IMG/VR virus record: IMGVR_UViG_3300024346_000320
Span: 1 to 31,551 of that record
Source of the DNA: a virus
DNA length: 31,551 nt
Strand: one strand, 5' to 3'
Within the stretch, counting starts at the first letter, position 1. Every line of letters begins with the position of its first letter. Under the pieces are notes generated by a model, which was not told the DNA's origin, did no database searches, and worked only from the letters and a program-made list of their open reading frames with translations. Both the position numbers and the translations under genes were made by a program. Shown here piece after piece: positions 3-30,726 of this stretch.

Positions 3-3000
3 TCAGTTAGAGAAAATAGATTCCAATCAAATCATTTAGAAAACTCTGGATGGCATTTTTCGTTTTTTGTGTCACCTGAAGAAATTCAACATAAAATACA
101 AACATACGCTCATCAAGAATATAATATTCCTGAAATTGTTAACATAGAAACGATTAAATCTAAAATTTATAACGGTTTGGATGTATTAAACAGACCTGAC
201 GTTATAATAAAAAAATTGAACAAAATTAGTGAAGATTTCCCAATAGAATTTTACAGACACGAAATATTTTTTAGAAACACTTTTGATAGACTTTATTTAA
301 AACCTGAAACCAAAAGAAGACGAAATGGTTCAATGCAAATACCTTTAGAAATTGAAAACCTACAACTAACGGTTGCGAATCATCAACCTAAAATTATTGT
401 TGAGATTGGAACTGCAAACGGAGGAACATTAGCGAGATGGTTTGAAATTCCATCGTCAGAAATTATTATTAGTATTGATTATCCAATAGGTAATCACGGA
501 GGGCAAGGATTTGAGGAGAGAACTTATGTTATTTCTGACGCTTTGGAGCAAGCAAATTTAACTAATAAACAATTCTTTGCAATTAATGGAGATTCAAAAC
601 ATCCTTATTTAGTTGAACGGTTAAGAGAGATTTTAGACGGAAAGAAAATTGATTTCTTATTTATTGATGGTGACCATACCTACGAAGGTGTTAGAGGGGA
701 TTTTGATATATATGAACAATTCTTAAATGAAAATTCTATTGTTGGATTTCACGATATACTTGATAGTGAATTTCACTCAGAGTTTAATTGTTTTGTTTCA
801 ATATTATGGTCGGAACTTAAACAAAAATACGAGAGTGTAGAATTTATGTATCCTCAATTATTAGACAAAAATATTTTAGAACTTTTTTATAATATGTCGT
901 ACCACAAAGGAGGTTTTGGGGGTATAGGTTATATTAACCACTCAAAAAAAAAAGTTCAATCTAAAAACATTTCTTTAGTTGTTCCAATTTATAATAATGT
1001 TGAAGACACAATAACAAATGTTAAAACAACTTTATTAACATCAAATCATATTGATGAGGTTATATTATATTCTAATGGTACAGATAATCAGGGAAATCAA
1101 AAATTAAAATTATTTGCTGAGTCCACTCCAATTATTAAATTAATTATTGTTGATGAGGCTATTGGTTTTGTAAAGGCAGTTAACGAATCATTTAAACTTT
1201 GTAAAAACGAATATATGCTTTGTTTAAATAGTGATGCGGTATTATATGATAATTGGGAAGAACAATTACTTAAATTATGTGAAAATGAAAAGAATGGGTT
1301 AATTGGACCGGTACTATGTGATGAGTTTATATTAGGTTGTTGTTTTATTGCAAAAAAATCCGTTTTAAATAAAATTGGGTTATTAAATGAGGGTTATGGT
1401 TTAGGTTATTGTGATGATGAAGATATATCTATTAGAGTTACATCTAATGGGTATGATTTAGGATATAGTTGTACTAAAACTGGATTTAATTGGGATGACC
1501 AATTTGTTAATTTTCCAATTATTCATCAACAAGGAAAATCATTTGGTTTAATTGATGGTGATTTTGTGTCTAAACAATTAAATTTAAACCAATTAAAAAT
1601 GAAAAAATGGAAGGAAGACACTAATAAAGTTGTTGTTTTAAAAGATTTAAGTTATGATGATGTAAAATCTTTATTAAACGAGGAAGAAGTTTTTGTTGTT
1701 ATTAATAAATCCGGAGATAATTTTGAAAAAATTAGATATGATGAGGATATTGTTAGATTATCTCATATTTTTGAATGTACAAACGATATGGTTATTGAGG
1801 ATATAATTACCTCAACAACAAAAGGAAAAGAAGTTGAGTTTAGAAAAAATGAAGAAATTAAACAAATAAATAACACAGTAATGACAAGAATTGATATTAT
1901 AAATTTATTAATTAGTAAACATAATTATAAAACCTATTTAGAAATTGGTGTTAGGAATCCAGATGATTGTCTTAACCATATTAAATGTGAATTAAAACAC
2001 GGGGTTGACCCTGGTGTAGAGGGTGACTATCCGGTAACTTTTAATATGACCTCTGATGAATTTTTCGAGATTAATACCTCAACCTACGATATCATATTCA
2101 TAGACGGGTTACATATTGATGAACAAGTTGAAAGGGATATTATTAATAGTTTAAAATTTTTAAGTGGAAATGGGACTATTCTTTTACACGATTGCAACCC
2201 CCCTGAAATATCTTATGGTAGAGAAGATTTTTATGATTACTCAACACCGGCTGGTATGGCTTGGAATGGTACTGTGTGGAAAGCAATTGTTAAAGTTAGA
2301 AGTGAAATTAATAATATATATACAAGTGTTGTTGATATTGATTGGGGTGTTGGGGTTATTCAAAAATCTAAAACACCAAATATGATTGTTAATGATAATA
2401 TGTACTATTCATATACTAAATTTGCCCAAAATAGAAAAAATTATCTAAATTTAATTTCAACTGATGAGTTTATTCAGAAATATATAAATGAAGATATTGA
2501 TAAAAAAAAAGCATTAACGTGGTTAGCTAAATATGACGATTATGCGTCAATGGGTATTTTATCTCAAAAAATACTTGGGAATTTAAAAACAACTAATGCT
2601 TCTTGTAAAGAAATTATTGGGGTTACTGAAACCAAAAATGAGTTAATCCACAATTTAATTAAAAAACCAATTAATCACGATTTGGGTATAATGTTTGCAT
2701 ATCCTGATATGGTTGGGGAATTAAAAGAATTTAAAATCAAAGTGGTTTATACCGGAGTTGATACCACAGGTGGTTATAGTCGATTTGTTGAAAAATCTAA
2801 AGAAATTGATTACATCCTAACACCATCCAATCTATCAAAAGATAGGATGATTAAAATGGGTGTGACAAAACCAATCTTTGTATTTCCTCACGGAATAGAA
2901 AAAAATGAATTCACATACAAACCAAGAGTAATGGGTGATAAGTTTAAATTCTTATATGTTGGTGAATGTAGTGATAGAAAAGGTATTTTCCACTTATTAA

Positions 3001-4265
3001 GAGCGTTTACTGAACTATATAAAAATAACCCAAATGTTGAATTACATTTAAAATCAAATACCGCAATGTTGTTCTATGGTGGTAATGAAGTTCAAAAATA
3101 TGTTGATGAGAACTCAAATATATTTTGGGATAAATCCGATGTTGGTCACGAAAAAACTTTAGAGTTATACAATGAATGCCACGTCTACGTTTACCCATCA
3201 AGAGCAGACACTTTTGGTATGACAGTATTAGAAGCAATGGGTTGTGGGTTACCGGTTATTTCAACATCAGAGCCGGGGTCAACAGAATTAGTTAAAGGGA
3301 TGTATTTTGAAATACCAACAAAAGAAATTCCTGTTATTGGTCATCCTTGGATGACTGGGAATTGGGGTGAACCAAACTTTGAAATGTTAAAACTTCAAAT
3401 GAAAACTATTCAAGAAAATTATGATTCATTAACAAATCCTCAAAAATTACAACAAATCTCAGAGTTTGTTAATGAAAATTATTGTTGGGAAAAAATAACT
3501 GAAAATTTTGAGAATAATATATTACCAAAACTAACTAAAGAGGTTAAAATTGTTACATTATTAACATCATATAAAAGACCTCATCATATTAAAAATATAA
3601 TTAATTGTCTTAAAGATATTAGAGAAAATGGTTATTCAAATGATGTGTATATTGTTGACAATACTAATGATGATTCAAAAGACGAGGTTACAAAAGTTAT
3701 TAATGAAAACATTGATGATAAATTCACTTTATATTCGTCAAGTTTTAATTTAGGTCAACGAGGTGCCCTTCTTCAGATGTTAGATGATATTAACATTGAT
3801 GATTATGATTTCATTCAATTCACTGACCAAGATAATTTATTATTGGAACCTTTGAGTACCTATTGTAATATTTTAAATGAGAATCCGGACATATTTTTTG
3901 CAACCGGTTATATGAGTAAAGAACACGGAGAACTTGGGTGGAAAAATACAAGGTTTGGTAATTTATGTGAAAAACGTTCATTAAGAGCGGGACATATGTT
4001 TATGAGGGTAAGTGATTTAAAAAATATGTTACCAATTCATTTAGATAGTCAATACGGACAACCACATAACTCATCTTGGTATGCGGGATTAGATTGGGAA
4101 GTTTCATATTGGAACCCAATGTCTCCGGGAAAAAGAACTAATGAAAATTTTGTATTATGTGTTCCGGGTGGTGTTTTACATAAAGGTGTTGATAGCACAT
4201 TCTATGAGTGGGATGTTGACGCCAATGAATATACTTTAGAAGAGTTGATAAAATTAAGGAATTAA
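3..4265 (+). CDS. Giant multidomain glycosyltransferase/methyltransferase protein (5' end outside window)
   Basis: The reading frame is open to the left edge, so the gene is partial. Residues are counted here from the GTG at 69, which is not the true start: codons before it encode GWHFSFF, and AHQEYN follows at residues 14-19, together resembling the C-terminal end of GT17 N-acetylglucosaminyltransferases. Next come a SAM-dependent methyltransferase resembling the CmcI/Methyltransf_24 group (about 86-292; VEIGTANGGT, FLFIDGDHTYEG, GFHDI), a GT2 domain (300-500; SLVVPIYNN, NSD at 387-389), a second methyltransferase (604-765; YLEIGVR, IIFIDGLHIDEQ, LLHDCNPP), a GT4-like domain (about 855-1150; FPHGIE, YVGECSDRKG, TFGMTVLEAMGCGLPV) and a second GT2 domain (1158-1380; LLTSYKRP, DQD at 1253-1255). 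Residues 500-600 and 766-850 are unassigned. No signal peptide or membrane segment is visible in this part. The protein probably assembles and methylates a glycan on virion proteins or a host surface. The domains are clear; the substrate is inference. Confidence 0.88.
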   Translation, partial: SVRENRFQSNHLENSGWHFSFFVSPEEIQHKIQTYAHQEYNIPEIVNIETIKSKIYNGLDVLNRPDVIIKKLNKISEDFPIEFYRHEIFFRNTFDRLYLKPETKRRRNGSMQIPLEIENLQLTVANHQPKIIVEIGTANGGTLARWFEIPSSEIIISIDYPIGNHGGQGFEERTYVISDALEQANLTNKQFFAINGDSKHPYLVERLREILDGKKIDFLFIDGDHTYEGVRGDFDIYEQFLNENSIVGFHDILDSEFHSEFNCFVSILWSELKQKYESVEFMYPQLLDKNILELFYNMSYHKGGFGGIGYINHSKKKVQSKNISLVVPIYNNVEDTITNVKTTLLTSNHIDEVILYSNGTDNQGNQKLKLFAESTPIIKLIIVDEAIGFVKAVNESFKLCKNEYMLCLNSDAVLYDNWEEQLLKLCENEKNGLIGPVLCDEFILGCCFIAKKSVLNKIGLLNEGYGLGYCDDEDISIRVTSNGYDLGYSCTKTGFNWDDQFVNFPIIHQQGKSFGLIDGDFVSKQLNLNQLKMKKWKEDTNKVVVLKDLSYDDVKSLLNEEEVFVVINKSGDNFEKIRYDEDIVRLSHIFECTNDMVIEDIITSTTKGKEVEFRKNEEIKQINNTVMTRIDIINLLISKHNYKTYLEIGVRNPDDCLNHIKCELKHGVDPGVEGDYPVTFNMTSDEFFEINTSTYDIIFIDGLHIDEQVERDIINSLKFLSGNGTILLHDCNPPEISYGREDFYDYSTPAGMAWNGTVWKAIVKVRSEINNIYTSVVDIDWGVGVIQKSKTPNMIVNDNMYYSYTKFAQNRKNYLNLISTDEFIQKYINEDIDKKKALTWLAKYDDYASMGILSQKILGNLKTTNASCKEIIGVTETKNELIHNLIKKPINHDLGIMFAYPDMVGELKEFKIKVVYTGVDTTGGYSRFVEKSKEIDYILTPSNLSKDRMIKMGVTKPIFVFPHGIEKNEFTYKPRVMGDKFKFLYVGECSDRKGIFHLLRAFTELYKNNPNVELHLKSNTAMLFYGGNEVQKYVDENSNIFWDKSDVGHEKTLELYNECHVYVYPSRADTFGMTVLEAMGCGLPVISTSEPGSTELVKGMYFEIPTKEIPVIGHPWMTGNWGEPNFEMLKLQMKTIQENYDSLTNPQKLQQISEFVNENYCWEKITENFENNILPKLTKEVKIVTLLTSYKRPHHIKNIINCLKDIRENGYSNDVYIVDNTNDDSKDEVTKVINENIDDKFTLYSSSFNLGQRGALLQMLDDINIDDYDFIQFTDQDNLLLEPLSTYCNILNENPDIFFATGYMSKEHGELGWKNTRFGNLCEKRSLRAGHMFMRVSDLKNMLPIHLDSQYGQPHNSSWYAGLDWEVSYWNPMSPGKRTNENFVLCVPGGVLHKGVDSTFYEWDVDANEYTLEELIKLRN

Positions 4266-4553: not shown

Positions 4554-5216
4554 ATGGCACAAATATATTATTTTAATCCGTGTTGCGGAGGTTTAGAACC
4601 ATTTGGGATTCCAAATAATTCAAAACCATTCACACTTTTCCCTGGTTTTACCGATACTGTAGGAACTCAGTATGGTTTAGTCATCGGTTCATATTCAGGA
4701 TGTGTAACATATAGTGGTAGTTCAACAACAAATTTAGGATTTGAAATAAAAAACTACGGAGCCACTCTTCCAACATTTTCATCATATGATTGTGATGTTT
4801 GTTTAGAATATATTTATCCTTGTGATGAACCACCTGTTATCACAACACCAACAATTATTGGGTATAAAAACGAATGTGGAATTATAACAATTTTACCAAT
4901 GGGTGTAGTATGTAAAATATCTAACCCAACATCGTATGATGCTCAAGATGGTGAAGTTTCTGTATCAATAACTGGAGGGACCGCTCCATACACTGTTACT
5001 TGGTTGAATAATGGAAATGTCTCACCAGCATTAAATGGTATAGGTATAGGCTCATACACAGCAACTACTGTAGATTATTGGGGAGATTATACTGCGACAA
5101 CAGTTTGTTACCTTGATGTTGAAAAAAATTGTTCATTTAATGCAACTATTGTGGAACAAGATATTAATAATTGTTTACCAACCGCTATGTCCGGATACAC
5201 ATTTGATTTAACATAA
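4554..5216 (+). CDS. Fibre/adhesin-like protein with one SprB-type repeat (220 aa)
   Basis: This is the first gene of the plus-strand fibre cluster. Residues about 122-187 form a SprB-type repeat, with DGEVSVSITGGTAPYTVTW, a short loop, then GIGIGSYTATTVDYWGDYT. The same fold family is found in Bacteroidota surface adhesins. The first 120 residues are unassigned and cysteine-rich (NPCCGG near the start, CDVC at 80-83). There is no signal peptide, as expected for a virion protein assembled in the cytoplasm. It ends seven bases before the next gene. A role as a tail-fibre or fibre-tip component is inferred from the repeat and the neighbours. It could also be a head decoration protein, as such Ig-like repeats occur on both parts of virions. 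Confidence 0.72.
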   Translation: MAQIYYFNPCCGGLEPFGIPNNSKPFTLFPGFTDTVGTQYGLVIGSYSGCVTYSGSSTTNLGFEIKNYGATLPTFSSYDCDVCLEYIYPCDEPPVITTPTIIGYKNECGIITILPMGVVCKISNPTSYDAQDGEVSVSITGGTAPYTVTWLNNGNVSPALNGIGIGSYTATTVDYWGDYTATTVCYLDVEKNCSFNATIVEQDINNCLPTAMSGYTFDLT

Positions 5217-5223
5217 AAAACAT

Positions 5224-7488
5224 ATGCCAGCAACATTTTCAGCATCAACCTGTATATCCACTAATAATACTTCACCGGGACCATTTAATATCTATTTGGA
5301 TAATAGTTATTCAACACCATTTTCTTCAGCAACACTTAATCAATTAATTAATTGCCCCTTTGTTATTGTAGTTCCAACAGGGACAACAACCTTATATTTT
5401 AAAGATACTATTAAAAATTTTTGTTTTACTACATCAATTCAAGATAATAACATATGTAGTAATTGTAAGTTAGGATTATCAAATTATTCTGCAACAACTA
5501 CATCAAGATTATATTGTGGATTTTTAACCGGGTCTTGTCAAAATATTACAGATTACGTTATTCATTGGTATGGTCCAAACGATACAACAACATTAGTAAA
5601 AAGAACCGGATTTGGTTCAGTTTTTTCAGGAGAATATGATATTCAACACCCATTTTTAGGAACATCCTCAATACCTTTATCTGAGGGTATTTATACTCCT
5701 GTCATTCAAAAAGTAATTGTAAGTGGGTTAACTTTTTCAAATACAGGTGGAACAGGTAATGTGTTATTTAGTGGTAGTTGTTTACCAACAACAACCATAC
5801 AACCATTAACTTGTTTAAATAATACTAACACAAACACCAAATATTGGTTAAGTGGTTATAACCATAACCTTAATTTTAATTCAGTCAGTCAAGGAACCCC
5901 TCAACCGGTTTCTGCAACATATGTAATATCCGCAAATACAAAATTTATGGCTTGGAGATTTAAAGGTAATTCAGTTCCTGACACATTTAAATTATCATTT
6001 AGTGGTAGTAATTATGGTGGTAATATAATTGGGTTAGAAAATTACGTAATTGGGTTAAATGGAAATACAAATTCATTTACACCATCTTTAATTTCTAAAT
6101 CATCAATAACAACAAATTATTTTACAAAAATAACTTGTTTAACAGGTTTAACAGTAAATAATGGTGATAAAATCAAAATAGATATAATACCTGCAACTTC
6201 AAACACTGATTGGGACTTATTTATAACGTGTTTAGATAGTTATAATTGTAATAGTTGTGCGTATACTAATCCATATAAAATTATTGGTTCAACCATAACA
6301 GGAATTACAGGTAATTGTCAAACGTATGTACAATTCTCAGTATCAGGTTGTTCTTTAAATTCTCTACATAATGAAGATTATTTTAAATACTACAATTTCC
6401 CATCTAATGAGGGGTATTTACCATACCAAACCACCAATGCGGTGCTAAGCCCAAATAGTAATACAAATCAATGGTTAGATATTGAGAACACAAACTCAAA
6501 TAATCAAATGCTTTATAAAAGTAACCCTCTTTTTTATTTTAATAGTAAATCTTGTTATTTTGCATCTCTTGCAATTCCTGGAGGTGGTACTACTTCGTGT
6601 CAGTCCGATACAAATGATACAACTTATAATAAAAAACAATTAACTGATGGTACTAATAGAGGAGTTTTTGGTATTACAGGTTCATCAACGGTAATATCAA
6701 CATATTACAATTCTTGGACAAATATTATTAACTATTCTAACTTACAAGGTGGAAGTTCTAATAATACAAATTTAGGGTATTATCGATATTTTTATATGAG
6801 TTTACCTAAACCTATTCATCCCCATAATTGTGGTGATAGTAGTGGAAGAGTTCAAATCCAAATTCATCCAACATCAACAGTATTGACCGGTATAACGTCA
6901 AGTGGTAATTACTTTTTTAATCTCACCGCAAATACTATAACAACCGGTTATACTATTTCTAGTTGTGATATTGATTGTTCATCAAAAATTAATAGTTTAT
7001 TAAGTGTTAACAGCGCGTCAACCGGAACAACAACTCTTTATAATCAATATTTCTCCGCCAACACAAGTTTTGGGTGGTATGGTATATATTATTCTAACCC
7101 ATTTGAACAACTAACGATTTTAACCGCCAGCACACAAACTATGTCGGCACAAACAATTTATTTAAGTGTTGATACTAATCAATGGTCAACAAATACATAC
7201 CCATATTCAGGAACATCACCATCAATAATACCATCATTTTCCGGTACTATATGTAACTATAAAAATCTTGGTATTAGTACACCTATTTGGGGGTCTTCTT
7301 ATAATACCTCATATCTTTGTTATTACACAATAAGACTACCTAACTCCGCAGATACCCGTAGTTTTGAAATATGGTCAGCACCTATAGTCAATTATAGTGC
7401 TAACACAAATTTTAATAACGCAATTTTAGCATACAGATATTCAGGTGGAAATGTCACATATTCATCATCAACATATATAATCGGATAA
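5224..7488 (+). CDS. Large Ser/Thr/Asn-rich virion protein, unassigned (754 aa)
   Basis: I do not recognise a family for the whole protein. The first 75 residues (NNTSPGPFNIYL, then VVPTGTTTLYF and a Cys at 67) match the N-terminus of the next gene product, pointing to a shared attachment or folding module. The remainder is dominated by Thr, Ser, Asn, Gly and Tyr, with beta-strand-like patterning and scattered cysteines (NCNSCAY near 345, SSCDIDCSS near 575). There are no membrane segments, no signal peptide and no enzymatic motifs. The composition is typical of trimeric phage fibres and of secreted beta-rich adhesins. It starts seven bases after the preceding gene and ends two bases before the next. 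The short leader AAAAAACATATG resembles the one before the gene at 11259. Confidence 0.65.
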   Translation: MPATFSASTCISTNNTSPGPFNIYLDNSYSTPFSSATLNQLINCPFVIVVPTGTTTLYFKDTIKNFCFTTSIQDNNICSNCKLGLSNYSATTTSRLYCGFLTGSCQNITDYVIHWYGPNDTTTLVKRTGFGSVFSGEYDIQHPFLGTSSIPLSEGIYTPVIQKVIVSGLTFSNTGGTGNVLFSGSCLPTTTIQPLTCLNNTNTNTKYWLSGYNHNLNFNSVSQGTPQPVSATYVISANTKFMAWRFKGNSVPDTFKLSFSGSNYGGNIIGLENYVIGLNGNTNSFTPSLISKSSITTNYFTKITCLTGLTVNNGDKIKIDIIPATSNTDWDLFITCLDSYNCNSCAYTNPYKIIGSTITGITGNCQTYVQFSVSGCSLNSLHNEDYFKYYNFPSNEGYLPYQTTNAVLSPNSNTNQWLDIENTNSNNQMLYKSNPLFYFNSKSCYFASLAIPGGGTTSCQSDTNDTTYNKKQLTDGTNRGVFGITGSSTVISTYYNSWTNIINYSNLQGGSSNNTNLGYYRYFYMSLPKPIHPHNCGDSSGRVQIQIHPTSTVLTGITSSGNYFFNLTANTITTGYTISSCDIDCSSKINSLLSVNSASTGTTTLYNQYFSANTSFGWYGIYYSNPFEQLTILTASTQTMSAQTIYLSVDTNQWSTNTYPYSGTSPSIIPSFSGTICNYKNLGISTPIWGSSYNTSYLCYYTIRLPNSADTRSFEIWSAPIVNYSANTNFNNAILAYRYSGGNVTYSSSTYIIG

Positions 7489-7490
7489 TT

Positions 7491-8789
7491 ATGAATAAAT
7501 ATTATACAATAACACTGACACCGGGAACAACATCTCCAGGACCTTACACAATTTATCTTAACGGAAACCCACCGGCAGTAATCCCATTACTTTACCCTGA
7601 ACTAACACTTGCACAAAATATTGAAATAGAAATATTACTTGCTGGCGTAACAGTTGAGGTACCGGATAACACTACATCTATTGTTGTTTATAATACATAT
7701 TGTGGTAGTCCCTTATCTTTAATACCTCCAACAATATCAACATATTCTGATTTTTGTTTATCAGTATCGGCACCTAAAAAAGGGGGAACAAATGTAAGTA
7801 ACACCCATTTTATTTATAACGGATTAGATTCTAATAATAAACCAACTTGGATAGACGAAAATGAACTTAACCCAAACTCAACAATTAATTGGGTTGGAAA
7901 TCAGTGGTTATTATCTACAACAATATTTGGAAACTCAATATTTTCAACATCAGAATTAACATCATCAATAACATTCCCGAGTTCTTGGCAATGGACTAGT
8001 GCAGGACCGGGTAGTTTAATTTTAACATCAATTAATGCGATTGAAGGTAATTGTGGTATAGTAAGAAAACAATTATCTCCTGTTAGTGTGAATCAACCAA
8101 CGTGTTTATGTGATGGTAGTATTATTTTTAACGTTACTTTAGATAACCCCCCATTTAATTATTCAATTGATAATGGTGTGACTTATTCTTCATCACCAAT
8201 TTTTACAGAACTTTGTAGTGGAATTTATAGTATATCAGTAGTTGATTCATTGGGTGATGTTTATTCAAACTCAGTTACTTTAAATAATCCGGAACAATCC
8301 ATTACTTATGAGATTTCTTTAAATACAACAAATACCACACCGGTTATTAATAATGTGTCAATTGTAAATTCTTATGAGACAACTATAATAGTAAGCCCAC
8401 CACTACCTGATGGAGCAACAGTGGTATTTGATATAATACATAACAATAGTTTTTATTCATCACCAAATAGTGGAACATCAATATTAACTACATCAACAAT
8501 TTTATATAAAAATAATAGTCAAGTAATATTAACAAACACGTCAAACAGTAAAAATGAATCCATCAATACAAATGCAGGTTGTCAAAAAGAATATATTTAT
8601 CAATCAAACATTGATGACGTTTGGAGTTCATTAACAATAACTAATAACGATACAATTACAATTAGTACATCATCAAGAGTTGATAAAACAACATCGGGAG
8701 AATGTGTGGTTGGTTATAGTACAGATAGTTTCTCAATTAGTAATCCGGTTATTAGTGGATGTGATTGTTGTTCAATAAAAATTAACTAA
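7491..8789 (+). CDS. Fibre/adhesin-like protein with a SprB-like repeat (432 aa)
   Basis: The N-terminal 75 residues (GTTSPGPYTIYL, then VEVPDNTTSIVVYNTYC) are a paralogue of the N-terminus of the protein encoded just upstream. Residues about 200-267 form a SprB-like repeat: CLCDGSIIFNVTLDNPPFNY, then LCSGIYSISVVDSLG. Residues 268-400 are Thr/Ser/Asn-rich beta-type sequence, and the protein ends in a cysteine cluster (SGCDCCSIKIN). No signal peptide or membrane segment is present. It follows the previous gene after two bases, so the two are probably co-translated. A role as a second subunit of the same fibre is the simplest reading; the receptor or partner cannot be told from sequence. Confidence 0.68.
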   Translation: MNKYYTITLTPGTTSPGPYTIYLNGNPPAVIPLLYPELTLAQNIEIEILLAGVTVEVPDNTTSIVVYNTYCGSPLSLIPPTISTYSDFCLSVSAPKKGGTNVSNTHFIYNGLDSNNKPTWIDENELNPNSTINWVGNQWLLSTTIFGNSIFSTSELTSSITFPSSWQWTSAGPGSLILTSINAIEGNCGIVRKQLSPVSVNQPTCLCDGSIIFNVTLDNPPFNYSIDNGVTYSSSPIFTELCSGIYSISVVDSLGDVYSNSVTLNNPEQSITYEISLNTTNTTPVINNVSIVNSYETTIIVSPPLPDGATVVFDIIHNNSFYSSPNSGTSILTTSTILYKNNSQVILTNTSNSKNESINTNAGCQKEYIYQSNIDDVWSSLTITNNDTITISTSSRVDKTTSGECVVGYSTDSFSISNPVISGCDCCSIKIN

Positions 8790-8816: not shown

Positions 8817-11249
8817 ATGGCATATATAGTTAAAAACACATCAGCATTAATTAACACAAGATTAACCGACACAGGTAGAAAAAAACTATCTGAAGGTAAT
8901 TTTAACATTTCATATTTTCAAATTGGAGATAGTGAAGTTTCTTATAATACATTAACCGGAACATCTTATAATCAATCCAGTAACAATATATTAGAACCTA
9001 ATTTTAATTCTCAAAATTCGGCACCCGGTCAAACTAATAAACAAAATGTTAAATACCCTATTTTTGTTAATTCGGGAAAAAATAGTGATTATGGTATTCC
9101 ATTTTCAGAACCACTTGTTTCTCCAATATATAACAGAGCAACAATGAGAGGTTTTTTTAGTGGTAACACAACCACACCACCATCTAGTTGGAGTGCTTTA
9201 ACTAGTACCGACTATGTCATCAACTCCAATTATGTTGTTGATATTTCAACATTTACCGGTGGGACACAAATTAAAATTATCTCATCTGCGTGTACCTCAA
9301 CTATTGTTAGGTTACCTATGAAAGGTGATTTAATTACAATATATTTTGATGGTAGTTCTGTTTATTGTAGTACAGGACCAATATCAGTTACCCCAACATC
9401 AACACCAACGCCAACCCCAACACCATCATATGATGCTTGTATTATATACCCAACCCCAACACCATCCTCAACTTGTTGTGTTACAACACCAACAGGATGT
9501 ACTCCAACACCTGTTGTAAACACTTTTGTTAATGTTAATAGTTGTTATAACATATTAACATATAGAATTGTTGACGTTTGTTTAAACATTATAACATTAG
9601 ATAGGGTAACACCTAACTATTCATATATAGCTTCGGGATGTACATATGTTAGAACATTAGTATATCCTCCAAATATGACTAACTTATATGATAGTGTAAC
9701 ACCAACACAACATTGGAATACTGATGTTATTAACTTTGAATCGATATGTAATACAGATGAGTTTGATGTTAAAGTTTGGAATATGAACATTCCTTGGTCT
9801 GAAAATCCCGCTGGTTTAATTGAGACCGGAACAGTTTCTCCATCACAAGGTTATAAAACTTTTAACTCTAAATCATATATTGGAACTAAAGAATATTTAG
9901 GTTATATGTCTAATAGCGGGCAAACTTTTGTTGATTTAAATGGTAATACAGAAGAATCTGTTTATTACTACGATTCTTTTTACAATAAAATAAATGTAAC
10001 TCCTGAAGAACAAAAATCTATTGGGATTATACACTATACAAATCAATCAATCGATTTCTATTATGGTGAGAAATTTGCTCTTGAACAACCAATTGCTGGA
10101 ACAATAGCTGAGGATATAACAGGTGACGCTAGAAATTTTAAATTACATTTACCTTGGCTAATGTGGCATAAAAATTCTGATTGTTGTGTTGGGGAAACAT
10201 TCTATGTTGTTCCACCTCAAGATAACTTTACAAGTGATGTGTCAACATTTTTTAAACCTCATTATATTAAGTCAACTAAAAATAGTGATATGAACACACC
10301 TGGTATTCGTTATTATTTTTTATGGGATGCACACCCAAATGCCTCTAATGGACGACCTAATAGAGTTGGTAAAGTATTTCCTGACCAAAAAATAATTGTT
10401 ATTGATGATGAAGAATTAATCGCCGCGTTATCATATAAATCAAATCGTAATTGGACATTACCCGCACCAACAACATCATTAATTGTTCCAAATAGTTGTA
10501 GTTCAGATGATTCATCGTTTAAAGGCGTTTTAACAGGTGCTAACGAAACTATGTATGTTAGTTATTTATTAACTAATGTATCATCCGGAGCAACTAATTC
10601 ATTACATTGTAATTATTATTCAAAAATATCCGGACCAAACGTTGATTGTGGGACACCAGGTAGTCAAAACGTTGCTGTTAGATTTGGTGGAGAATTTAAT
10701 TGTTTAAACCAAATAACAAATAACACACTTTTTGATGGTTATGTTGCAAATAAGTTTCAACTGATTTGTCAACTAGTCACAGACGGAAGTAGACCACTGT
10801 CAAATGCTTGGAAAATAATTGATTTTACAAGTCAATTAAGCGCAACAACTATAAATGGATATATTACACAAAACGGATTAACCGGTAACACATTTGTCAT
10901 AACAAACAATATGTATACAACCGCAACAACATATAACTTAAATAATTATATTTCACTACCTACAGTGGGTCAAACAGGACAAACCCTTAATTTTGGTGAT
11001 GAATATTATTTTTATGGTTCATTAGAAACAGATATTCAAGCAACCATTTATGAAATGAGGTATAAGATAAATCTTGGTCAATCAGAATTTCAAACATCAT
11101 CAAACCCAAGTTGGTCTCAAGGTGTTTCACCATATATTTCAGAAATTGGTCTTTACGATGATAAATTCAATCTTATGATTGTATCAAAGCTACAATCTCC
11201 TGTACAAAGACAGGGTATTCAACAGTTTTTAGTTAAATTTGATTTCTAA
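8817..11249 (+). CDS. Putative baseplate-attached tail fibre protein with Thr-Pro linker (810 aa)
   Basis: The N-terminus (LINTRLTDTGRKKLSEGNF, then FQIGDSEVSYN) and the C-terminus (SPYISEIGLYDDKFNLMIVS) resemble the two halves of the N-terminal attachment domain of phage tail-fibre proteins. That family typically has a T.tG...L..G...I....iGd pattern followed by an EIGLYDE.GNLI stretch. Here the halves are separated by about 700 residues, as if a large insert had been placed in the domain. Residues 192-233 are a Thr-Pro linker (TPTSTPTPTPTPS and PTPTPSSTCCVTTPT) like the long stalk in the gene on the opposite strand at 11887. Residues 300-550 hold Trp/Tyr-rich sequence (LPWLMWHKNSDCC, RYYFLWDAHPNAS) of unknown function. 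No signal peptide is present. The gene is followed after nine bases by the resolvase gene. Fibre or baseplate attachment is inferred. Confidence 0.66.
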   Translation: MAYIVKNTSALINTRLTDTGRKKLSEGNFNISYFQIGDSEVSYNTLTGTSYNQSSNNILEPNFNSQNSAPGQTNKQNVKYPIFVNSGKNSDYGIPFSEPLVSPIYNRATMRGFFSGNTTTPPSSWSALTSTDYVINSNYVVDISTFTGGTQIKIISSACTSTIVRLPMKGDLITIYFDGSSVYCSTGPISVTPTSTPTPTPTPSYDACIIYPTPTPSSTCCVTTPTGCTPTPVVNTFVNVNSCYNILTYRIVDVCLNIITLDRVTPNYSYIASGCTYVRTLVYPPNMTNLYDSVTPTQHWNTDVINFESICNTDEFDVKVWNMNIPWSENPAGLIETGTVSPSQGYKTFNSKSYIGTKEYLGYMSNSGQTFVDLNGNTEESVYYYDSFYNKINVTPEEQKSIGIIHYTNQSIDFYYGEKFALEQPIAGTIAEDITGDARNFKLHLPWLMWHKNSDCCVGETFYVVPPQDNFTSDVSTFFKPHYIKSTKNSDMNTPGIRYYFLWDAHPNASNGRPNRVGKVFPDQKIIVIDDEELIAALSYKSNRNWTLPAPTTSLIVPNSCSSDDSSFKGVLTGANETMYVSYLLTNVSSGATNSLHCNYYSKISGPNVDCGTPGSQNVAVRFGGEFNCLNQITNNTLFDGYVANKFQLICQLVTDGSRPLSNAWKIIDFTSQLSATTINGYITQNGLTGNTFVITNNMYTTATTYNLNNYISLPTVGQTGQTLNFGDEYYFYGSLETDIQATIYEMRYKINLGQSEFQTSSNPSWSQGVSPYISEIGLYDDKFNLMIVSKLQSPVQRQGIQQFLVKFDF

Positions 11250-11258
11250 AAAAAACAT

Positions 11259-11858
11259 ATGAAAAAAACATTAAAAGAAAGCCCTAAAGTTTTAGGGCTT
11301 GATGTTTCTACCAAAACTATTGGATGGGCATTATTTGACATACAAAGTAGAGAATTATTAGAACTAACCCACGTATCACCAACTCCAAAACCAAAGGAAG
11401 ATAACAAAATAAAAGAATTACTTCTTAAAGGTGAAATTTTTAGAACTAAACTTTTAGAATATAAAGATATGGGGATTACTAAAGTAATTATTGAGGAACC
11501 TTTATTAAACTCAAATAACGTCTACACAGTCCAAACATTGTTAAGGTTTAATACTTTGGTCACCAAAGAAATTTACGATGTTTTAGGGGTGGTTCCTGAC
11601 TTTATATCGACATACAACTCTCGTAAGTTTGCCTTCCCCGAATTAGTTAAAGAAAATGATAAAGGTAAGTTTGTATTATTTGGTGGTCTTCCAAAAGACA
11701 TTGATAAGAAACAAATTATTTGGGATTTAATAGCCAAAAAAGAACCACAAATAACTTGGCAATACACAAGAAACAATACCCTCAAAAAAGAAAACTTCGA
11801 CCAAACAGACGCTTATTGTTGTGTCTTAGGTCATATGAGACAAGAAAATATATGGTAA
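11259..11858 (+). CDS. RuvC-like Holliday-junction resolvase family protein (199 aa)
   Basis: The protein has the RNase H-fold signature of RuvC-type nucleases. VLGLDVSTKTIGWALFD at residues 11-27 carries the first acidic residue (D15), VIIEEPLL at 76-83 carries the central glutamate (E79 or E80), and FDQTDAYCCVLG near 180-191 carries the last acidic residues (D181, D184). The length fits RuvC-like proteins of large phages. Such enzymes cut branched DNA during replication, recombination or before packaging. The ATG at 11259 is preceded by AAAAAAAACAT and no Shine-Dalgarno sequence. It sits nine bases after a fibre gene and directly before a terminator, an unusual place for a DNA-processing gene. 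A Thr-Pro-like stretch (SPTPKPKEDNK, 40-50) is probably a surface loop. A non-resolving RNase H-fold nuclease is a less likely alternative. Confidence 0.85.
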   Translation: MKKTLKESPKVLGLDVSTKTIGWALFDIQSRELLELTHVSPTPKPKEDNKIKELLLKGEIFRTKLLEYKDMGITKVIIEEPLLNSNNVYTVQTLLRFNTLVTKEIYDVLGVVPDFISTYNSRKFAFPELVKENDKGKFVLFGGLPKDIDKKQIIWDLIAKKEPQITWQYTRNNTLKKENFDQTDAYCCVLGHMRQENIW

Positions 11859-11863
11859 AAAAT

Positions 11864-11888
11864 AACCCCCTTAATTGGGGGTTTTTTT
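11864..11888. terminator. Two-way intrinsic terminator between convergent clusters
   Basis: The stem CCCCC at 11866-11870 pairs with GGGGG at 11877-11881 around the loop TTAATT, extended by flanking AA/TT pairs. Seven T residues follow on the plus strand (11882-11888). On the minus strand the hairpin is followed by TTATTTTTT. It lies between the stop of the resolvase gene (11858) and the stop of the SprB fibre gene (11889-11887), with which the T-run overlaps. It can end both transcripts. Confidence 0.85.
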
Positions 11889-14800
11889 ATTTATCACATA
11901 TATGACTTAATGATAATATATTATTTTTTGGTCCACAACCAACTTTATAGAAATATTCATAATCAAATATTTCACCATCAATTATATTATTTGTGACACT
12001 CAATGAGAATCCATTATAAGTTGTAATATCTCGAACTAATGAATAACCATCCCCAATATAGGTCACTAAAATAGTGATTACATCATCCTGAACAACATTA
12101 TATGATGTAGAATAAGTGGTTATTAAATTATTATTCCAAGAATAAAGAAGTTCATTATTTAACAATACCTTACCTTGTCCTTCACCTCTACATTGATTAG
12201 AAAATTTAAAATCTAATTTACATTTGTCACCACCAATATCTATCAATATATTATCAAGACATTTTTTACAATCACCATATAAGTTACCGTCCCAATTAGT
12301 AAAATAATTAACAGTACCTGAATCAAAAGTGTTTGAATATATACCTAAATACTGATTTAACGTTAATGTATTTCCAATTAATTCCCAACAAGTTCGTACA
12401 CCTCTTTTGTCGGTAAATAATATTGTATTACCCAATTCCATTCCTTGAGTAACCAACATAGTTTGAAGAACCACAAGTGATTTTTCATTACCACCACACT
12501 CTCTGTAAGCGTAATACGTTGTTAACGGAGACGGTGTTGGTGTTGATGTTGACGCAGGTGTTTGAGTTAACGTAGGTGTTTGAGTTAACGTAGGTGTTGG
12601 TGTTAATGTATTAGTTGGCGTTAATGTTAGTGTTGGTGTTAATGTTGGTGTTAATGTATTTGTCGGAGTTAATGTGTTTGTAGGTGTTAATGTTGGTGTT
12701 GGAGTATTAGTTTGAGTTAATGTTGGTGTTGGAGTAACCGACGCACCCGGTGTTGGTGTTAATGTTGGTGTCGGTGTATTAGTTTGTGTCAATGTTGGTG
12801 TTGGAGTAACCGACGCACCCGGTGTTGGTGTTAATGTTTGAGTTAACGTAGGTGTTGGTGTTAATGTATTAGTTGGCGTTAATGTATTAGTTGGAGTTAA
12901 TGTTGGTGTTGGCGTTAATGTTGGTGTTAATGTATTTGTAGGTGTTAATGTTGGCGTTGGGGTAGGCGAAGAACTTGGTATCGGTCCACAATATTCACAA
13001 GAAATATCATAATTAATAGTTGTACTAACTATTACAGTTGTGTTATGTAAAGATTCCGGGTCACAATTAGTTTTAACATAAATTGTATTATCCGGATAAG
13101 TTTCAACATTACCCGCACCAATTTGTGGTGAACTTTCAATTAATGTTGTAACCCAACCATAAAAATCACTATCCGTTGGGTATTCATCTAACGCGTACCC
13201 TGTGTAAATTACGCTAGACGTAACAAAAGTCCCTGCAGTAACACTAAGAGTAAAAATCGCACTATTTAAAACACAATTTGTGAACCCTGATGTTAAATCA
13301 TAAAAACCTTCATTTAACATTTCTCGAGGACCTGTTTTGACAATAACAGGATTATCACCCAACGTTAAATTACCACTACAAACACTATAAGTTCCTGAAC
13401 CATTATAAGTATTTATACCATCAATAACAATTTGTTTTGTTTTTGAGAAACCATCCGCATCAACTACTCTAAGAGAATAGGTGCCCGCAGATAAATTATT
13501 GACCGTCATACCAGTATCCCCATTTGACCATATAAAATCAAAAGGCGGTTTACCATCTAAAACATATGCAGATATTTCACCATTTGAATTTATCGCAAAC
13601 TTATTACTCGATAAGTGAAAATCAACCGCAACTGAATTGTCAATTGTAAAAGGTAATGATTGATAACATTTAGTACTATCTACTACACTAGCAAGATAAT
13701 TTCCTGAGGCTAAATTGTTAAAGGTATATGACATTACCGAAGTTGTCACTAATTGTGAGTTAATACTATAAGTATATGGTGGTGTACCTCCACTAGTTAT
13801 ATACAATGTCACACTTCCGTTGTTTTCACCACCGGTAGTTCCGGTAGTTGAGGTAGTTAAACCAAATAAAACATCATTATTAATTGTATATGTATTTGAA
13901 TAAGTACAAGGGCCTAAATCTGTTACACTTAAAGTATAGGTCCCTGATGATAAATTTTCAAATCTCCAAACATTACTATCTATGATATTTGTTGTAATAT
14001 TACCATTGGAGTCCGTTAAAATGTATGTGTATGGTGGTGTTCCACCTAATACAGTTATTGGACCTAATATTCCTGACAAGTCATTACATTTTGAATTGGT
14101 TGTATTAACAAACACGCTCGATATACCTGCGGGTGTTAATAATGTTGTTGACGAACTTGATTTACATAAACCGGCATCTGTAACTTCAACTGTAAATCCG
14201 CCCGGAGATAAACTTGTAAAAATAACCGTTCTATCAAAAGTAATTATTGACTCACCATTAGAGGCTAAATAATAAAATGGTGCCGTACCATCAACAACAA
14301 TTACAGTCACTTCACCATCAGCGGTAAAACAACTTGGTTGAGTAACAAATAATGAACCAATTAAAACCGGACTTACTATATCCACATTAGCACTTTTAGA
14401 AACCCCACAACCACTATTATCAGTTACAGTCACACTATAAGTTCCTGCGGTCAACCCTGTTAATGAATCACCAATCACTCCGTTTGACCATAAGTAAGTA
14501 TATGGTGGGTTACCTGTTAAACCACTAATAAATATTTTCCCTGAGTTTGTTGTACAACCAGCATCATTAACCACAAATAAATCATAATTTATTGTTGTTG
14601 AAGTTTTTACAATACAAGTTTCTGACATACCCGTACATCCGGCACCATCGTCAGCAATTACATAATATGTTCCAGCACTTAACGATGTGAATTCCGCAAC
14701 ATTTGAATATGGTGATGATGAGTCAATAAACCCTGATGTATTTTCATATAAAAAGAATGTTGCATTCCCATAAGAGTATGTTGTGGATGCAGTTATTGAC

Positions 14801-15117
14801 CCGTTATTCAAACCACATAAAGTATCTGTGTGACTATCAATTGAAGTACAAGTACCACTAGATATTAAAACATTTACAGGTAAAACCGTGTTAGGTGAAC
14901 AACTATCAATTATATTTAATGTGTAAGTTCCCGCACTTAAGAATATTTTGTTATAAGTAGTCACATCAACACCAAGCGGTATTACATCCGTAATTGGTGT
15001 TAACCATTGTATAGTATATGGAGGTGAATCTCCAATTATATCAAGAGTAAATCCTCCCGCAAAAGAGTTAGTACAATCACCTGTTATACTAATATTATAT
15101 GTTAAATTACACGCCAT
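11887..15117 (-). CDS. SprB-repeat tail fibre with Thr-Pro stalk (1076 aa)
   Basis: This is the last gene of the baseplate cluster. Residues 1-566 hold about seven tandem SprB-like repeats of 65-90 residues. The clearest is at 180-245 ([16 protein letters not shown], then [17 protein letters not shown]); others recur as GGTPPYTY at 358-365 and 443-450 and [16 protein letters not shown] at 521-536. Residues 567-710 are a separate Thr/Ser-rich region. Residues 715-863 are a Thr-Pro stalk of TPT and NTL units. Residues 866-1076 form a cysteine-containing C-terminal domain ([17 protein letters not shown]). There is no signal peptide. SprB repeats are known from Bacteroidota gliding adhesins and other surface proteins. 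The position at the end of a W-J-...-I order suggests the P2 H (fibre) role: N-terminal repeats toward the baseplate and a C-terminal receptor-binding tip. Which end binds is inference. The start lies one base after the upstream stop. Confidence 0.82.
12529..12975 (-). repeat. Thr-Pro stalk coding repeat (about 447 bp)
   Basis: On the minus strand this stretch encodes residues 715-863 of the SprB fibre, made of degenerate TPT, TPTL and TPTNTL units. It is the most repetitive DNA in the window. Pro at nearly every second position predicts an extended rod-like stalk, and the dense Thr residues are potential O-glycan sites. Copy number is likely to vary between related phages. Confidence 0.9.
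12688..12831 (-). repeat. Two tandem 72-bp units inside the Thr-Pro stalk
   Basis: Two adjacent 24-residue units (residues 763-786 and 787-810) both read [20 protein letters not shown] followed by TPTL. The DNA copies are nearly identical over 72 bp, with shared features such as the GGAGTAACCGACGCACCCGG segment seen on the plus strand at about 12731 and 12803. They look like a recent tandem duplication. Confidence 0.88.
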
Positions 15118-19038: not shown

Positions 19039-20223
19039 TTATGTTGTTGCGTTAATTATGTTAAAAAATTTATATCCGTACTTTTCTAAACTACCGATAC
19101 TGTTAACCTCACCAAGTCTTTCAATACTTTCTAAGGCGGAGTTTTTGCCCCTTTCAATAAATACATTGCTTTGTACTTCTGCTTCATCAATTATTCCTAA
19201 TAATAGCTCATTTTTTACAATTGGTTGACAAACTACCGTATCAGTGGTCAAACCTGAGGATTCAGCAATGAAAAGTGTTGTACCATTGTTATAATCATAG
19301 TAGGTAATATCGTTAATTGTATAGGCGGTATATAACCCACCATCAAACACACCCAAGTATCTACCAATAAATCCAGTGTTTCCGGTTATATCATATGTAG
19401 TTACCGAATAAGGTGTAGGTCCATATTGTTTTAAATCAGTTAATGATGATGTTGTATATCCTGTAATTAAAAAAGGTACCGTTGTAAATTGAGTAATATC
19501 TTGAGTTGTTGAATCACAGTTACTATCACCACTGAATATATAATCATAAGGAACTAATATACCATTCCAATTACCCCCCATAGGAGTAAAGAATGCCTCA
19601 CCTTTCGGATTAGATATTGTTGTTCCTGTAAACGGAAGTTGAACTGTTTTAGTTATTGTATTTGTACCCCACGGACTCATACCCGACATAGTAATTTGAG
19701 TTTCACCTGTAGAAGTATAATCGTGATATATTTGAGCCGTTGATGTTATAGATTGAGGTACTGAACCATCCCCCCAATCAACTTTATATGTCGAAAACTG
19801 TAAGTATTTCTTAAATTCAACATCAGATGTATTATAAAAATAAACTCTTTGGGGGTATAAAGTTGTCGCAGAAAATAAAAAATTTAACATTGTATCTTTT
19901 TGTACAACCATACCATCAAACACTGAATAATATCCAATATCCACAGTATTCTCAGTAATTAAAATAGGAACCGTTAAACCTGTTAATAATGAATCATATT
20001 GTGTGGTACCTGTATTGTATGTACCTCCCGATAACACTTCAGTCATTGCGGAATACGCATATGTTGAACCTGTTACTTTTATCTCAATCATTTTTGATGT
20101 AAGAACACAACATTCCTTAGAATATGATGTTCCCGTAATAGTGGCTCCGTTATAATTAACTTTAAATATGTCCCCACTAATCACACCAGGTGAAATCTTT
20201 ATACTATAATTTTTATCTATCAT
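19039..20223 (-). CDS. Virion-cluster protein with a PKD-like domain (394 aa)
   Basis: Residues about 145-197 resemble a PKD domain: YKVDWGDGSVPQSI, then QIYHDYTSTGETQITMSG, then TITKTVQLPF. The WGDG and HDYTSTGE-type motifs are characteristic of this Ig-like fold, which is common on bacterial surface proteins and some phage fibres. The N-terminal part (NYSIKISPGVISGDIFKVNY) is beta-rich, and the C-terminal 60 residues are more helical and charged (IIDEAEVQSNVFIERGKNSA). No signal peptide is seen. It starts two bases after the upstream stop and ends one base before the next start. A peripheral baseplate or fibre-network role is inferred from the fold and the neighbours. Confidence 0.7.
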   Translation of the reverse strand: MIDKNYSIKISPGVISGDIFKVNYNGATITGTSYSKECCVLTSKMIEIKVTGSTYAYSAMTEVLSGGTYNTGTTQYDSLLTGLTVPILITENTVDIGYYSVFDGMVVQKDTMLNFLFSATTLYPQRVYFYNTSDVEFKKYLQFSTYKVDWGDGSVPQSITSTAQIYHDYTSTGETQITMSGMSPWGTNTITKTVQLPFTGTTISNPKGEAFFTPMGGNWNGILVPYDYIFSGDSNCDSTTQDITQFTTVPFLITGYTTSSLTDLKQYGPTPYSVTTYDITGNTGFIGRYLGVFDGGLYTAYTINDITYYDYNNGTTLFIAESSGLTTDTVVCQPIVKNELLLGIIDEAEVQSNVFIERGKNSALESIERLGEVNSIGSLEKYGYKFFNIINATT

Positions 20224-20225
20224 AA

Positions 20226-21110
20226 TTAAGGGTTAATATATTCATACCATTTTATGGAACTTACATCTCCAATTCTATTACCACCATTATCAAATATTTT
20301 ATAAGTGTAATCGGTATAATCCAACACAACTTTATAATAGAAAAAATTTTCAGGTACAAATTGAAATAATGACGGAACTAACGGTAATACTTGAGGTGTT
20401 GTCATCATTTTAACAAAAATCCCCAATCTAGCATCAAAAAATTTAGCCGTCATATAAAAAGTTTCCGTAGTATTTGTTGAGTTAGGGTTAATATTTAAAA
20501 AATTCTTTTTTCTTAACCAATACAAGAAGAACCCTTCTTTATCCCCAACATAATCTAATTTAAATGAGGGTATTTTAATGTTAACAGGAGGTTTAGATGT
20601 TGATGTTAATCCTGTAACAGTAAACCCTTGTTGTACGGGTATAATTACACTAAAATAATTAGTCTGAGTTGTCGCTGATTTAGTGTCATAAAAATCCAAT
20701 TTAAAGAACGATTTTGTAAAAGGTTTTATATAATAATAAATGTCTTTAGTTGTAAAACCTTCAGGTATATAACTTATTTTCCAATCTGTTGGAAGAGCTG
20801 TTGTTATATCTGAAGATGGATTAGGTGGGACTGTTGGAACTAAAACGTTATCATCATCAGGTAATAACACACTAAAAAAATGAAAATCATATTTAACGTC
20901 AGTTTTTGTATTACTACTATACGATGCGTGAGCAAATCTTAAAATTTCAAAATCATCCGCAACACCGGTAATTCTGTCAACAGCATATTGTTGATATTCA
21001 TCAACAGCATCCGTTCTTCCTAAGAAATCCCATTTGATTTCTACAGGTAGATTAATATATTTGTCGTCACCTTTCGGTAATGTAAATTTAAATTTATTAT
21101 TCACAACCAT
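20226..21110 (-). CDS. Unassigned virion-cluster protein (294 aa)
   Basis: I do not recognise a family. The start chosen is the ATG at 21110 (MVVNNKFKFTLPKGDDKYIN), which overlaps the upstream gene by only 14 bases (ATGGTTGTGAATAA). A further in-frame ATG at 21146 would overlap by 50 bases and add an atypical MQHFTVLLNLKT. The sequence is rich in aromatic residues and looks like a compact beta-type structural domain (VEIKWDFLGRTDAVDEYQQY, YYIKPFTKSFFKLDFY, FFYYKVVLDYTDYTYKIFDN). There is no membrane segment and no enzymatic motif. Tight linkage to the baseplate genes suggests a virion component. Confidence 0.68.
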   Translation of the reverse strand: MVVNNKFKFTLPKGDDKYINLPVEIKWDFLGRTDAVDEYQQYAVDRITGVADDFEILRFAHASYSSNTKTDVKYDFHFFSVLLPDDDNVLVPTVPPNPSSDITTALPTDWKISYIPEGFTTKDIYYYIKPFTKSFFKLDFYDTKSATTQTNYFSVIIPVQQGFTVTGLTSTSKPPVNIKIPSFKLDYVGDKEGFFLYWLRKKNFLNINPNSTNTTETFYMTAKFFDARLGIFVKMMTTPQVLPLVPSLFQFVPENFFYYKVVLDYTDYTYKIFDNGGNRIGDVSSIKWYEYINP

Positions 21111-22944: not shown

Positions 22945-22945
22945 A

Positions 22946-28267: not shown

Positions 28268-28281
28268 ATATTATCTTTTTT

Positions 28282-28289
28282 AATAAATA
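28282..28289 (-). promoter_or_regulatory. TATTTATT element before the 1773-aa gene (weak)
   Basis: In the 72-base gap between the J-like gene and the 1773-residue gene the minus strand reads CTATTTATTAA, a one-base variant of the TATTTATA octamer, 14 bases before the ATG at 28267. The gap is the largest inside this cluster and is very AT-rich, so the match may be chance. It could allow separate transcription of the genes downstream. Confidence 0.22.
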
Positions 28290-28339
28290 GTTTATACACT
28301 ATTTTTAAAAGATAATTCATTATTATTTAAAATAAATTA

Positions 28340-30178: not shown

Positions 30179-30182
30179 AATA

Positions 30183-30641
30183 TTATATATTAATTATTAC
30201 AAAATCACTAGAATTAAATACATCATCAGTAATAACATAATCAATTCTAACTTTAGCGGTATGTTCTAATTGAGCAATACCAGGTACTCTAAAAACTCTA
30301 TCGTTCTCACCATTAACATAAGACCCTTTATCTTCTTGTCCGTCTGACGCCGCTGTTATATTAATACTTGTAAGTTTTAAATTTGGCATATATAGGTCAA
30401 CAGCGTCACGTATTTCAGATTCTATTTGTGAAAACGTAGGTGCGTCCAATGGGTCAAAAAGAAATTCATATAATCTTGTTCCAAAATCCGGTAAATAATA
30501 TCTTGTACCTTTTCTTGTTAACAAAAGATGTATTAAATTATTTCTGATTTCTTTTTCCGTTGTATTAGATAAATCTAAATATTTCCCTTCAAAAGAATCT
30601 CTGAAAGGAAAAGTCAAACCGTATGTTGTTCCATCTGCCAT
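30183..30641 (-). CDS. Baseplate wedge protein, gp25 / W-like (152 aa)
   Basis: This is the first gene of the minus-strand baseplate cluster. Residues about 27-95 match the GPW/gp25 family: TTEKEIRNNLIHLLLTRKGT, RYYLPDFGTRLYEFLFDPLD, and EIRDAVDLYMPNLKLTSI. The LLTRKGTR and PDFG motifs are hallmarks of this fold. The length is close to that of T4 gp25 (132 aa) and P2 W (115 aa). The protein sits at the sheath-baseplate junction, where it seeds sheath assembly and binds the gp6/J protein encoded next. Residues 96-152 are a longer beta-type tail with GSYVNGENDRVFRVPGIAQL. Two TATTTATA octamers precede the start, one only three bases away. Confidence 0.93.
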   Translation of the reverse strand: MADGTTYGLTFPFRDSFEGKYLDLSNTTEKEIRNNLIHLLLTRKGTRYYLPDFGTRLYEFLFDPLDAPTFSQIESEIRDAVDLYMPNLKLTSINITAASDGQEDKGSYVNGENDRVFRVPGIAQLEHTAKVRIDYVITDDVFNSSDFVIINI

Positions 30642-30644
30642 AAC

Positions 30645-30652
30645 TATAAATA
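30645..30652 (-). promoter_or_regulatory. TATTTATA motif before the baseplate cluster (proximal)
   Basis: On the minus strand CTATATTTATAGTT runs directly into the ATG at 30641, with the octamer ending three bases before the start. The arrangement is the same as before the gene at 4450. It is the best placed of the octamers to drive the long baseplate transcript, since a terminator lies just upstream. Confidence 0.42.
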
Positions 30653-30671
30653 TAGTGTCGTAACTATTTTT

Positions 30672-30679
30672 TATAAATA
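30672..30679 (-). promoter_or_regulatory. TATTTATA motif before the baseplate cluster (distal)
   Basis: A second octamer TATTTATA (minus strand, context GGGGTATTTATAAAAAATAG) lies 30 bases before the ATG at 30641, right after the T-run of the nrdA terminator. A promoter here would give a leader of roughly 20 bases. It may act together with, or instead of, the proximal copy. Confidence 0.35.
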
Positions 30680-30682
30680 CCC

Positions 30683-30717
30683 CTAAAATAAAAAATCACG
30701 ACCTTAAGTCGTGATTT
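30683..30717 (-). terminator. Intrinsic terminator after nrdA
   Basis: A perfect 10-bp stem has its arms at 30693-30702 and 30708-30717 (AAATCACGAC and its complement) with a five-base loop. On the minus strand it is followed by TTTTTATTTTAG. It begins about ten bases after the nrdA stop and separates nrdA from the baseplate cluster. The run of T residues is on the side expected for minus-strand transcription. Confidence 0.85.
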
Positions 30718-30726
30718 ATATTCTTA

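Follow-up and report, generated by a model that had tools for sequence, protein, structure and literature searches.

A modular glycosyltransferase-methyltransferase fusion beside fibre genes of T4-like phages and its possible role in virion glycosylation

Why would a phage join several glycosyltransferases (GTs) and methyltransferases (MTs) end to end in a single protein, and on which polymer would such a protein work? The question is posed by the window analysed here, a virus record in IMG/VR that holds 31,551 bases and is classed as linear, in which ORF analysis found the open reading frame (ORF) 3-4265 (+), open for 1420 aa and closed by a stop. A preliminary description made from the DNA letters had read six glycan-active modules in this frame, and their presence and order were borne out by Pfam and PHROG matches, by relatives and by a predicted GT-A fold: the C-terminal part of a GT17, a Methyltransf_24 enzyme (MT1), a GT2 (GT2a), a second Methyltransf_24-like module (MT2), a GT4 and a GT2-like GT-A module (GT2b). 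We give a probability of roughly 0.6 to the reading that the protein is a soluble multi-enzyme that builds an oligosaccharide, partly methylated, on fibres of the phage itself, with its modules varying that glycan.

Modules of the fusion and their conservation

Since no stop lies upstream in the frame and the contig begins there, the fusion gene is 5'-truncated. Its full-length relative L004 measures 1598 aa and is 79% identical, and about 180 codons of the gene are missing from the window coordinates, the GT17 module being incomplete. The GT17 identity of the N-terminal end, assigned through relatives (the module of L004 matches PF04724 at E 6.7e-23), upholds the preliminary description, with the correction that only the last ~80 residues (3..242, +) are present and that the DXD active site falls beyond the contig edge. 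On the same strand follow MT1 (309..896), a Methyltransf_24 / RMNT_CmcI-like S-adenosylmethionine (SAM) methyltransferase (PF13578 E 9.4e-20, PF04989 7.3e-6); GT2a (960..1667; PF00535 E 4.5e-15); a linker subdomain (1668..1880) found by blastp and alignment after every GT2a copy; MT2 (1881..2492; phrog_27561 E 6.5e-12, matched by residues 686-791); GT4, of the GT-B type (2502..3536; PF00534 E 2.1e-20, phrog_2170 4.4e-39); and GT2b (3543..4259). In Pfam, Methyltransf_24 (E 9.4e-20) and Glycos_transf_2 (4.5e-15) each match two stretches of the protein, and Glycos_transf_1 (GT4) matches at E 2.1e-20. Hydropathy analysis revealed no convincing membrane anchor, the sole stretch scoring 1.8-2.1 being located within the GT2a domain.

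Catalytic motifs are kept in nearly every judgeable module of the fusion and its relatives. MT1 conserves EIGTANGGT and IDGDH, and MT2 conserves EIGV, FIDGLH and LHDCNPP, so that both combine a profile match with SAM motifs. In GT2a the SD and ED-motif aspartates are invariant, as are DQD 1275-1277 and D1364/E1366 (DWE) in GT2b, these metal-binding acidic motifs accompanying a predicted GT-A fold in both modules. The GT4 module joins its Glycos_transf_1 match to R992/K993 and D1069-x7-E1077, which 17 sequences share without change, the motif being D-x7-E rather than of the E-x7-E type. Retention of catalytic residues, a point on which the preliminary description had staked its reading, thus holds for MT1, GT2a, MT2, GT4 and GT2b. 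GT17 stands apart: L004, L023, L028 and L030 have its DXD, but in L003 and L029 another residue takes the place of the first Asp.

Structure prediction agreed with these assignments. An AlphaFold model (AF2) of GT2b has a GT-A fold (pLDDT 69, pTM 0.75) and is matched in Foldseek by SpsA (E 8.4e-8), TarS and COLGALT1; the last match was rejected as a sign of collagen specificity, being a generic GT-A match. The model of GT2a-linker-MT2 (pLDDT 82) shows a GT-A domain, which resembles heparosan synthase and polypeptide GalNAc-transferases, and a second alpha/beta domain. PDB sequence profiles gave nothing useful for MT1, MT2 or GT17. The glycosyltransferase and methyltransferase classes are therefore well supported at the level of sequence and predicted fold, and the modules are probably catalytically active, with methyl-sugar chemistry as the likely activity, as had been proposed from the letters. 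Identity between close relatives drops at residues 501-540 of the window protein (GT2a; 39-54%), and residues 901-940 (GT4) are 55% identical to L004 but 92% to L003; these stretches are perhaps specificity regions.

Relatives, module shuffling and distribution

Scans of IMG/VR contigs found 16 relatives of the fusion, whose modules were mapped by blastp. They range from 596 to 2287 aa and fall into six architectures with one fixed order, every one ending in GT4-GT2b. This core stands alone in L033, L034 and L044 (the last carrying MT2 as a separate, overlapping ORF); it is preceded by GT2a in L032, L040 and L043, by MT2 in L002 and L025, by GT17-MT1-GT2a in L003, L028 and L029 (as well as in L021 and L030, which are cut by contig edges, and L031, more so), and by GT17-MT1-GT2a-MT2 in L004 and the window. 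The longest protein, the nine-module L023 of 2287 aa, reads FkbM-MT24-GT17-MT1-GT2a-GT2a-MT2 before the core. An assembly artefact or a frameshift fusion was ruled out because many independent contigs show the identical module order. The "complete" assembly line of the preliminary description is not supported, as some relatives consist of GT4-GT2b only and the larger islands hold many further transferases as separate genes.

The first Met of MT2 in the window and L004 corresponds to the start codon of MT2 in L002, L025 and L044. L023 shows the same for GT17, which retains its own start Met at the junction, so that start codons of once-separate genes are preserved at module borders and identify these proteins as gene fusions. 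Moreover, the window protein is mosaic. Residues 1-80, the GT17 remnant, are 92% identical to the C-terminal part of the L004 GT17 and 39% to L003, whereas from about residue 81 the ranking reverses, with identity of up to 98% to L003; MT2 is nearest to that of L002 (80%), which is without the N-terminal half. The architectures are scattered when placed on a GT4-GT2b core tree, and counting changes on it by hand under parsimony gives a minimum of 3 for MT2, 4 for GT17-MT1 and 5 for GT2a. These sequence comparisons are most simply read as recombination that exchanges modules at their borders.

Some relatives are exactly one module apart, for example L003 and L004 (MT2) or L033 and L032 (GT2a), so that mass spectrometry could show directly what each module contributes to a virion glycan. 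Two further observations concern single contigs. In L021 (2-3649) GT2b ends about 44 residues early, which may be a broken copy, a natural variant or an assembly error, and L044 (1589-5392) encodes a second such fusion of 1268 aa (GT9, GT4 and another GT-like segment) upstream of its MT2 and core.

A pattern scan of 84,980 prokaryote genomes gave no relative of the GT4-GT2b core, and hence no cellular source of the fusion at that sensitivity. Cellular relatives of MT1 are stand-alone enzymes, 73 of 75 ORFs being no longer than 400 aa, with a median of 252 aa. Among 50,697 phage records the matches listed cover at most 26% of the fusion protein and none covers 80%, which agrees with its presumed rarity among sequenced phages. 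The named phages matched do conform to the view that phage glycosyltransferases are as a rule single-domain; it does not extend to giant viruses, for which BFVD lists multi-domain transferases, or to uncultured Caudovirales, for which it lists long GT proteins. The literature searched yielded no description of a phage fusion of this kind, subscription papers lying mostly outside that search.

Candidate acceptors and competing explanations

The first + strand gene past the fusion (4554..5216) encodes a 220-aa SprB-repeat protein (PF13573 E 2.9e-7; Hoc-like phrog_2973 7e-4), followed on the same strand by three Ser/Thr/Asn-rich fibre-like ORFs with Thr-Pro stalks (5224-7488, 7491-8789 and 8817-11249; 31-38% Ser+Thr+Asn), which are candidate acceptors. 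The fibre cluster had been noticed at the outset, and the counts confirm it: the first two ORFs each contain 38% Ser+Thr+Asn, compared with 20% in the fusion, and Thr-Pro dipeptides number 16 in ORF 8817-11249 and 37 in ORF 11887-15117. ORF 5224-7488 is about 30% identical to G003 27479-30127. Gene content was counted over 15 IMG/VR records, all of them fragments, and collagen repeats occur in 10. In nine of the stretches examined a collagen-like ORF is located on the fusion's strand at a distance of 0.8-6.1 kb, on both sides in five. Gly-Leu/Ile/Thr/Ala-Ser makes up most of the triplets, Ser/Thr fills 57-100% of Y positions and proline is at about 1-3%; such Gly-X-Ser/Thr arrays could be O-glycosylation substrates. 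As a passage of PMC3368898 relates, citing Bann et al. (2000), sugar on threonine stabilises collagen.

The surrounding islands are rich in sugar genes. Those of L002, L003 and L004 variously carry GT9, an HldE-like kinase and adenylyltransferase, a nucleotidyltransferase, GT60 (PF11397), GT25, GT10 and YibB-like genes, and in L029 a hexapeptide transferase accompanies a 4,6-dehydratase-like gene. The HldE-like, nucleotidyltransferase and dehydratase-like genes among these would serve the supply of sugars. A GT60-type protein (L003:13813-15078; PF11397 E 9.8e-71) recurs in the L002, L004 and L021 islands. PF11397 is the family of the Skp1 hydroxyproline GlcNAc-transferase; in eukaryotes, GT60 and GT25 act on Skp1 hydroxyproline and collagen hydroxylysine, respectively.

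Because collagen-like or Ser/Thr/Asn-rich fibres adjoin the fusion and sugar genes share its islands, the acceptor is most likely to be the fibres of the phage itself, and virion decoration, as first proposed, would be the leading target. The conserved C-terminal pair GT4-GT2b would add core sugars, and the optional N-terminal modules (GT2a, MT2, GT17-MT1 and FkbM-MT24) would lengthen the chain and methylate it. Whole-module gain, loss, duplication or swap at borders would alter the glycan between phages. The Ser/Thr-rich fibres, in most relatives Gly-X-Ser/Thr collagen-like, would be modified in the host cytoplasm while virions assemble. The benefit may be adhesion tuning, fibre stabilisation or masking. 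As modules are added, dropped and swapped in a fixed order beside collagen-like fibre genes, it is probable that the virus makes a sugar coat of its own and varies it. The modules, their motifs, order and shuffling and the gene neighbourhood are read from sequence; catalysis, donor sugars, the fibre acceptor and the benefit are inferred.

Several points weigh against fibres as acceptor. Many phages have collagen-like fibres without glycosylation. No collagen-like ORF was found in the window, whose upstream side is cut off, nor in the examined L021, L028 and L044 stretches or the L002 contig, all fragments. The GT25 and GT60 identities in the islands come from Pfam only, and neither a prolyl nor a lysyl hydroxylase came to light, no systematic search having been made. 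Lipopolysaccharide (LPS) core synthesis is where GT9 and HldE-like genes are typically found. In addition, the recombinant collagen EPclA of an enterohaemorrhagic Escherichia coli (EHEC) prophage is unglycosylated in E. coli (PMC3368898).

On the main rival reading, the fusion and its island act during infection to remodel a surface polymer of the host (LPS outer core, O-chain or capsule), for example to block competing phages. GT9 heptosyltransferase-like and HldE-like genes do adjoin the fusion, and passages of PMC7029224 read the fibre-region glycosyltransferases of pelagimyophages in this way. We nevertheless regard it as unlikely, given the tight same-strand linkage to fibre and collagen-like genes, the lack of a convincing membrane segment, and a virion-gene neighbourhood that would be odd for early host takeover; the undecaprenyl-phosphate (lipid-carrier) sugar transferase PF02397 occurs in 0/15 records, a weak absence in fragments. 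A bolder version of fibre decoration is a little more doubtful still: module order and content would act as a glycan code, setting the sequence of the methylated oligosaccharide on collagen-like and Thr-Pro fibres, so that swapping would rewrite the fibre glycan much as module swapping in modular polyketide synthases rewrites the polyketide.

It is improbable that the N-terminal modules are passengers in a drifting pile of captured genes in which only the GT4-GT2b core matters. The core is always present and the other modules are often lost, the GT17 DXD has lost its first Asp in L003 and L029, and the L021 GT2b is without its last ~44 residues; yet frames of 4-7 kb remain open, and the MT1, GT2a and MT2 motifs are invariant. 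Least probable is glycosylation of hypermodified phage DNA bases as a block to restriction, since, although diverse glycosyltransferases act on phage DNA (Pyle et al. 2024, as cited in a passage of PMC12619734), modules for a methyl-sugar oligosaccharide and fibre neighbours are atypical of DNA hypermodification, and the thymidylate-synthase-fold hydroxymethylase PF00303 occurs in 0/15 records, again a weak absence in fragments. No PADLOC model for anti-phage defence was matched, and a defence or conflict role was rejected, the PF20706 GT4-conflict match overlapping an ordinary GT4 region matched far better by Glycos_transf_1.

Known systems and phage context

Fibre glycosylation by one multi-domain protein would have parallels in giant viruses. 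In chlorovirus PBCV-1, A064R comprises two rhamnosyltransferases and an O-methyltransferase, and A111/114R has three GT domains (PMC7826918). Both place several transferase domains in one viral protein, and A064R, which serves a virion glycan, also pairs GTs with a methyltransferase; in domain content and at the level of fold, the phage fusion is likewise a soluble viral protein with several transferases, a methyltransferase included. The chlorovirus, however, is an algal giant virus with three domains acting on a capsid N-glycan, whereas the fusion belongs to phages, has six to nine shuffled domains and has fibres as its candidate acceptor. Mimivirus L230 acts on a viral collagen-like protein (PMC9614988) and, together with Moumouvirus and Catovirus GT and GT-MT proteins, is a multi-domain viral glycan enzyme among the structural neighbours of the GT2a-MT2 model; L230 pairs its GT with a lysyl hydroxylase, unlike the fusion, and the likeness to these proteins is at fold level. 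A064R and A111/114R are a functional precedent, and we therefore regard the fusion as a larger, combinatorial phage form of virus-encoded multi-domain glycan synthesis, not as a new kind. What these T4-like phages add is up to nine modules with a natural deletion and swap series and, if the fibre reading is true, a phage case of glycosylated collagen-like fibres.

Bacterial and phage comparisons are less close. Mycobacteriophages glycosylate their own capsid and tail tube, at the C-termini of the subunits according to passages of PMC12619734 (citing Freeman et al. 2023); these are actinobacterial phages, whereas fibres are the candidate acceptor here. Bacillus BclA is a collagen-like glycoprotein carrying sugars and, like the phage proteins, a bacterial collagen-like fibre, but it belongs to the spore and its source describes no multi-enzyme fusion (PMC8968730). 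In T4-like pelagimyophages a hypervariable region intersperses tail fibre genes with GTs and sugar genes (rfaE); the passages concerned mention no fusions and read the GTs as modifying host LPS (PMC7029224).

On its minus strand the window encodes a gp6-like baseplate wedge protein (28340-30178; phrog_219 E 1.8e-24), a gp25-like baseplate wedge protein (30183-30641; phrog_261 E 4e-16) and a ribonucleotide reductase fragment, which together indicate a T4-like phage. Genes for phage DNA polymerase, helicase and PhoH-like proteins occur in further records of the group. The nearest isolates for the window gp6 are only 26-28% identical, Flavobacterium phage immuto among them, and the gp25-gp6-fibre block of immuto contains no annotated glycan genes. 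SprB repeats in two window proteins also point to a host that may belong to the Bacteroidota.

A few features of the fibre regions may be recorded. G002 19536-31505 (-; L009/L010) is a collagen-like ORF of 3990 aa, very long for a phage fibre, with >1000 Gly-X-Ser/Thr triplets and about 1% proline. L010:12843-15764 (-; G002 32843-35764) encodes a fibre-like protein of 974 aa with Thr-Pro stalks and, as judged by eye only, what looks like a papain-like cysteine protease segment at its end. A G002 ORF read by eye as a large terminase had no phage match and was not used as evidence. On the contig of L004, shortly after the fusion, L013:13175-16207 encodes a 1010-aa Ser/Thr/Asn-rich protein with DUF285 repeats. 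In the window itself, a RuvC-like resolvase (11259-11858; phrog_159 E 1.2e-5) has the fibre genes on one side and the convergent baseplate block on the other.

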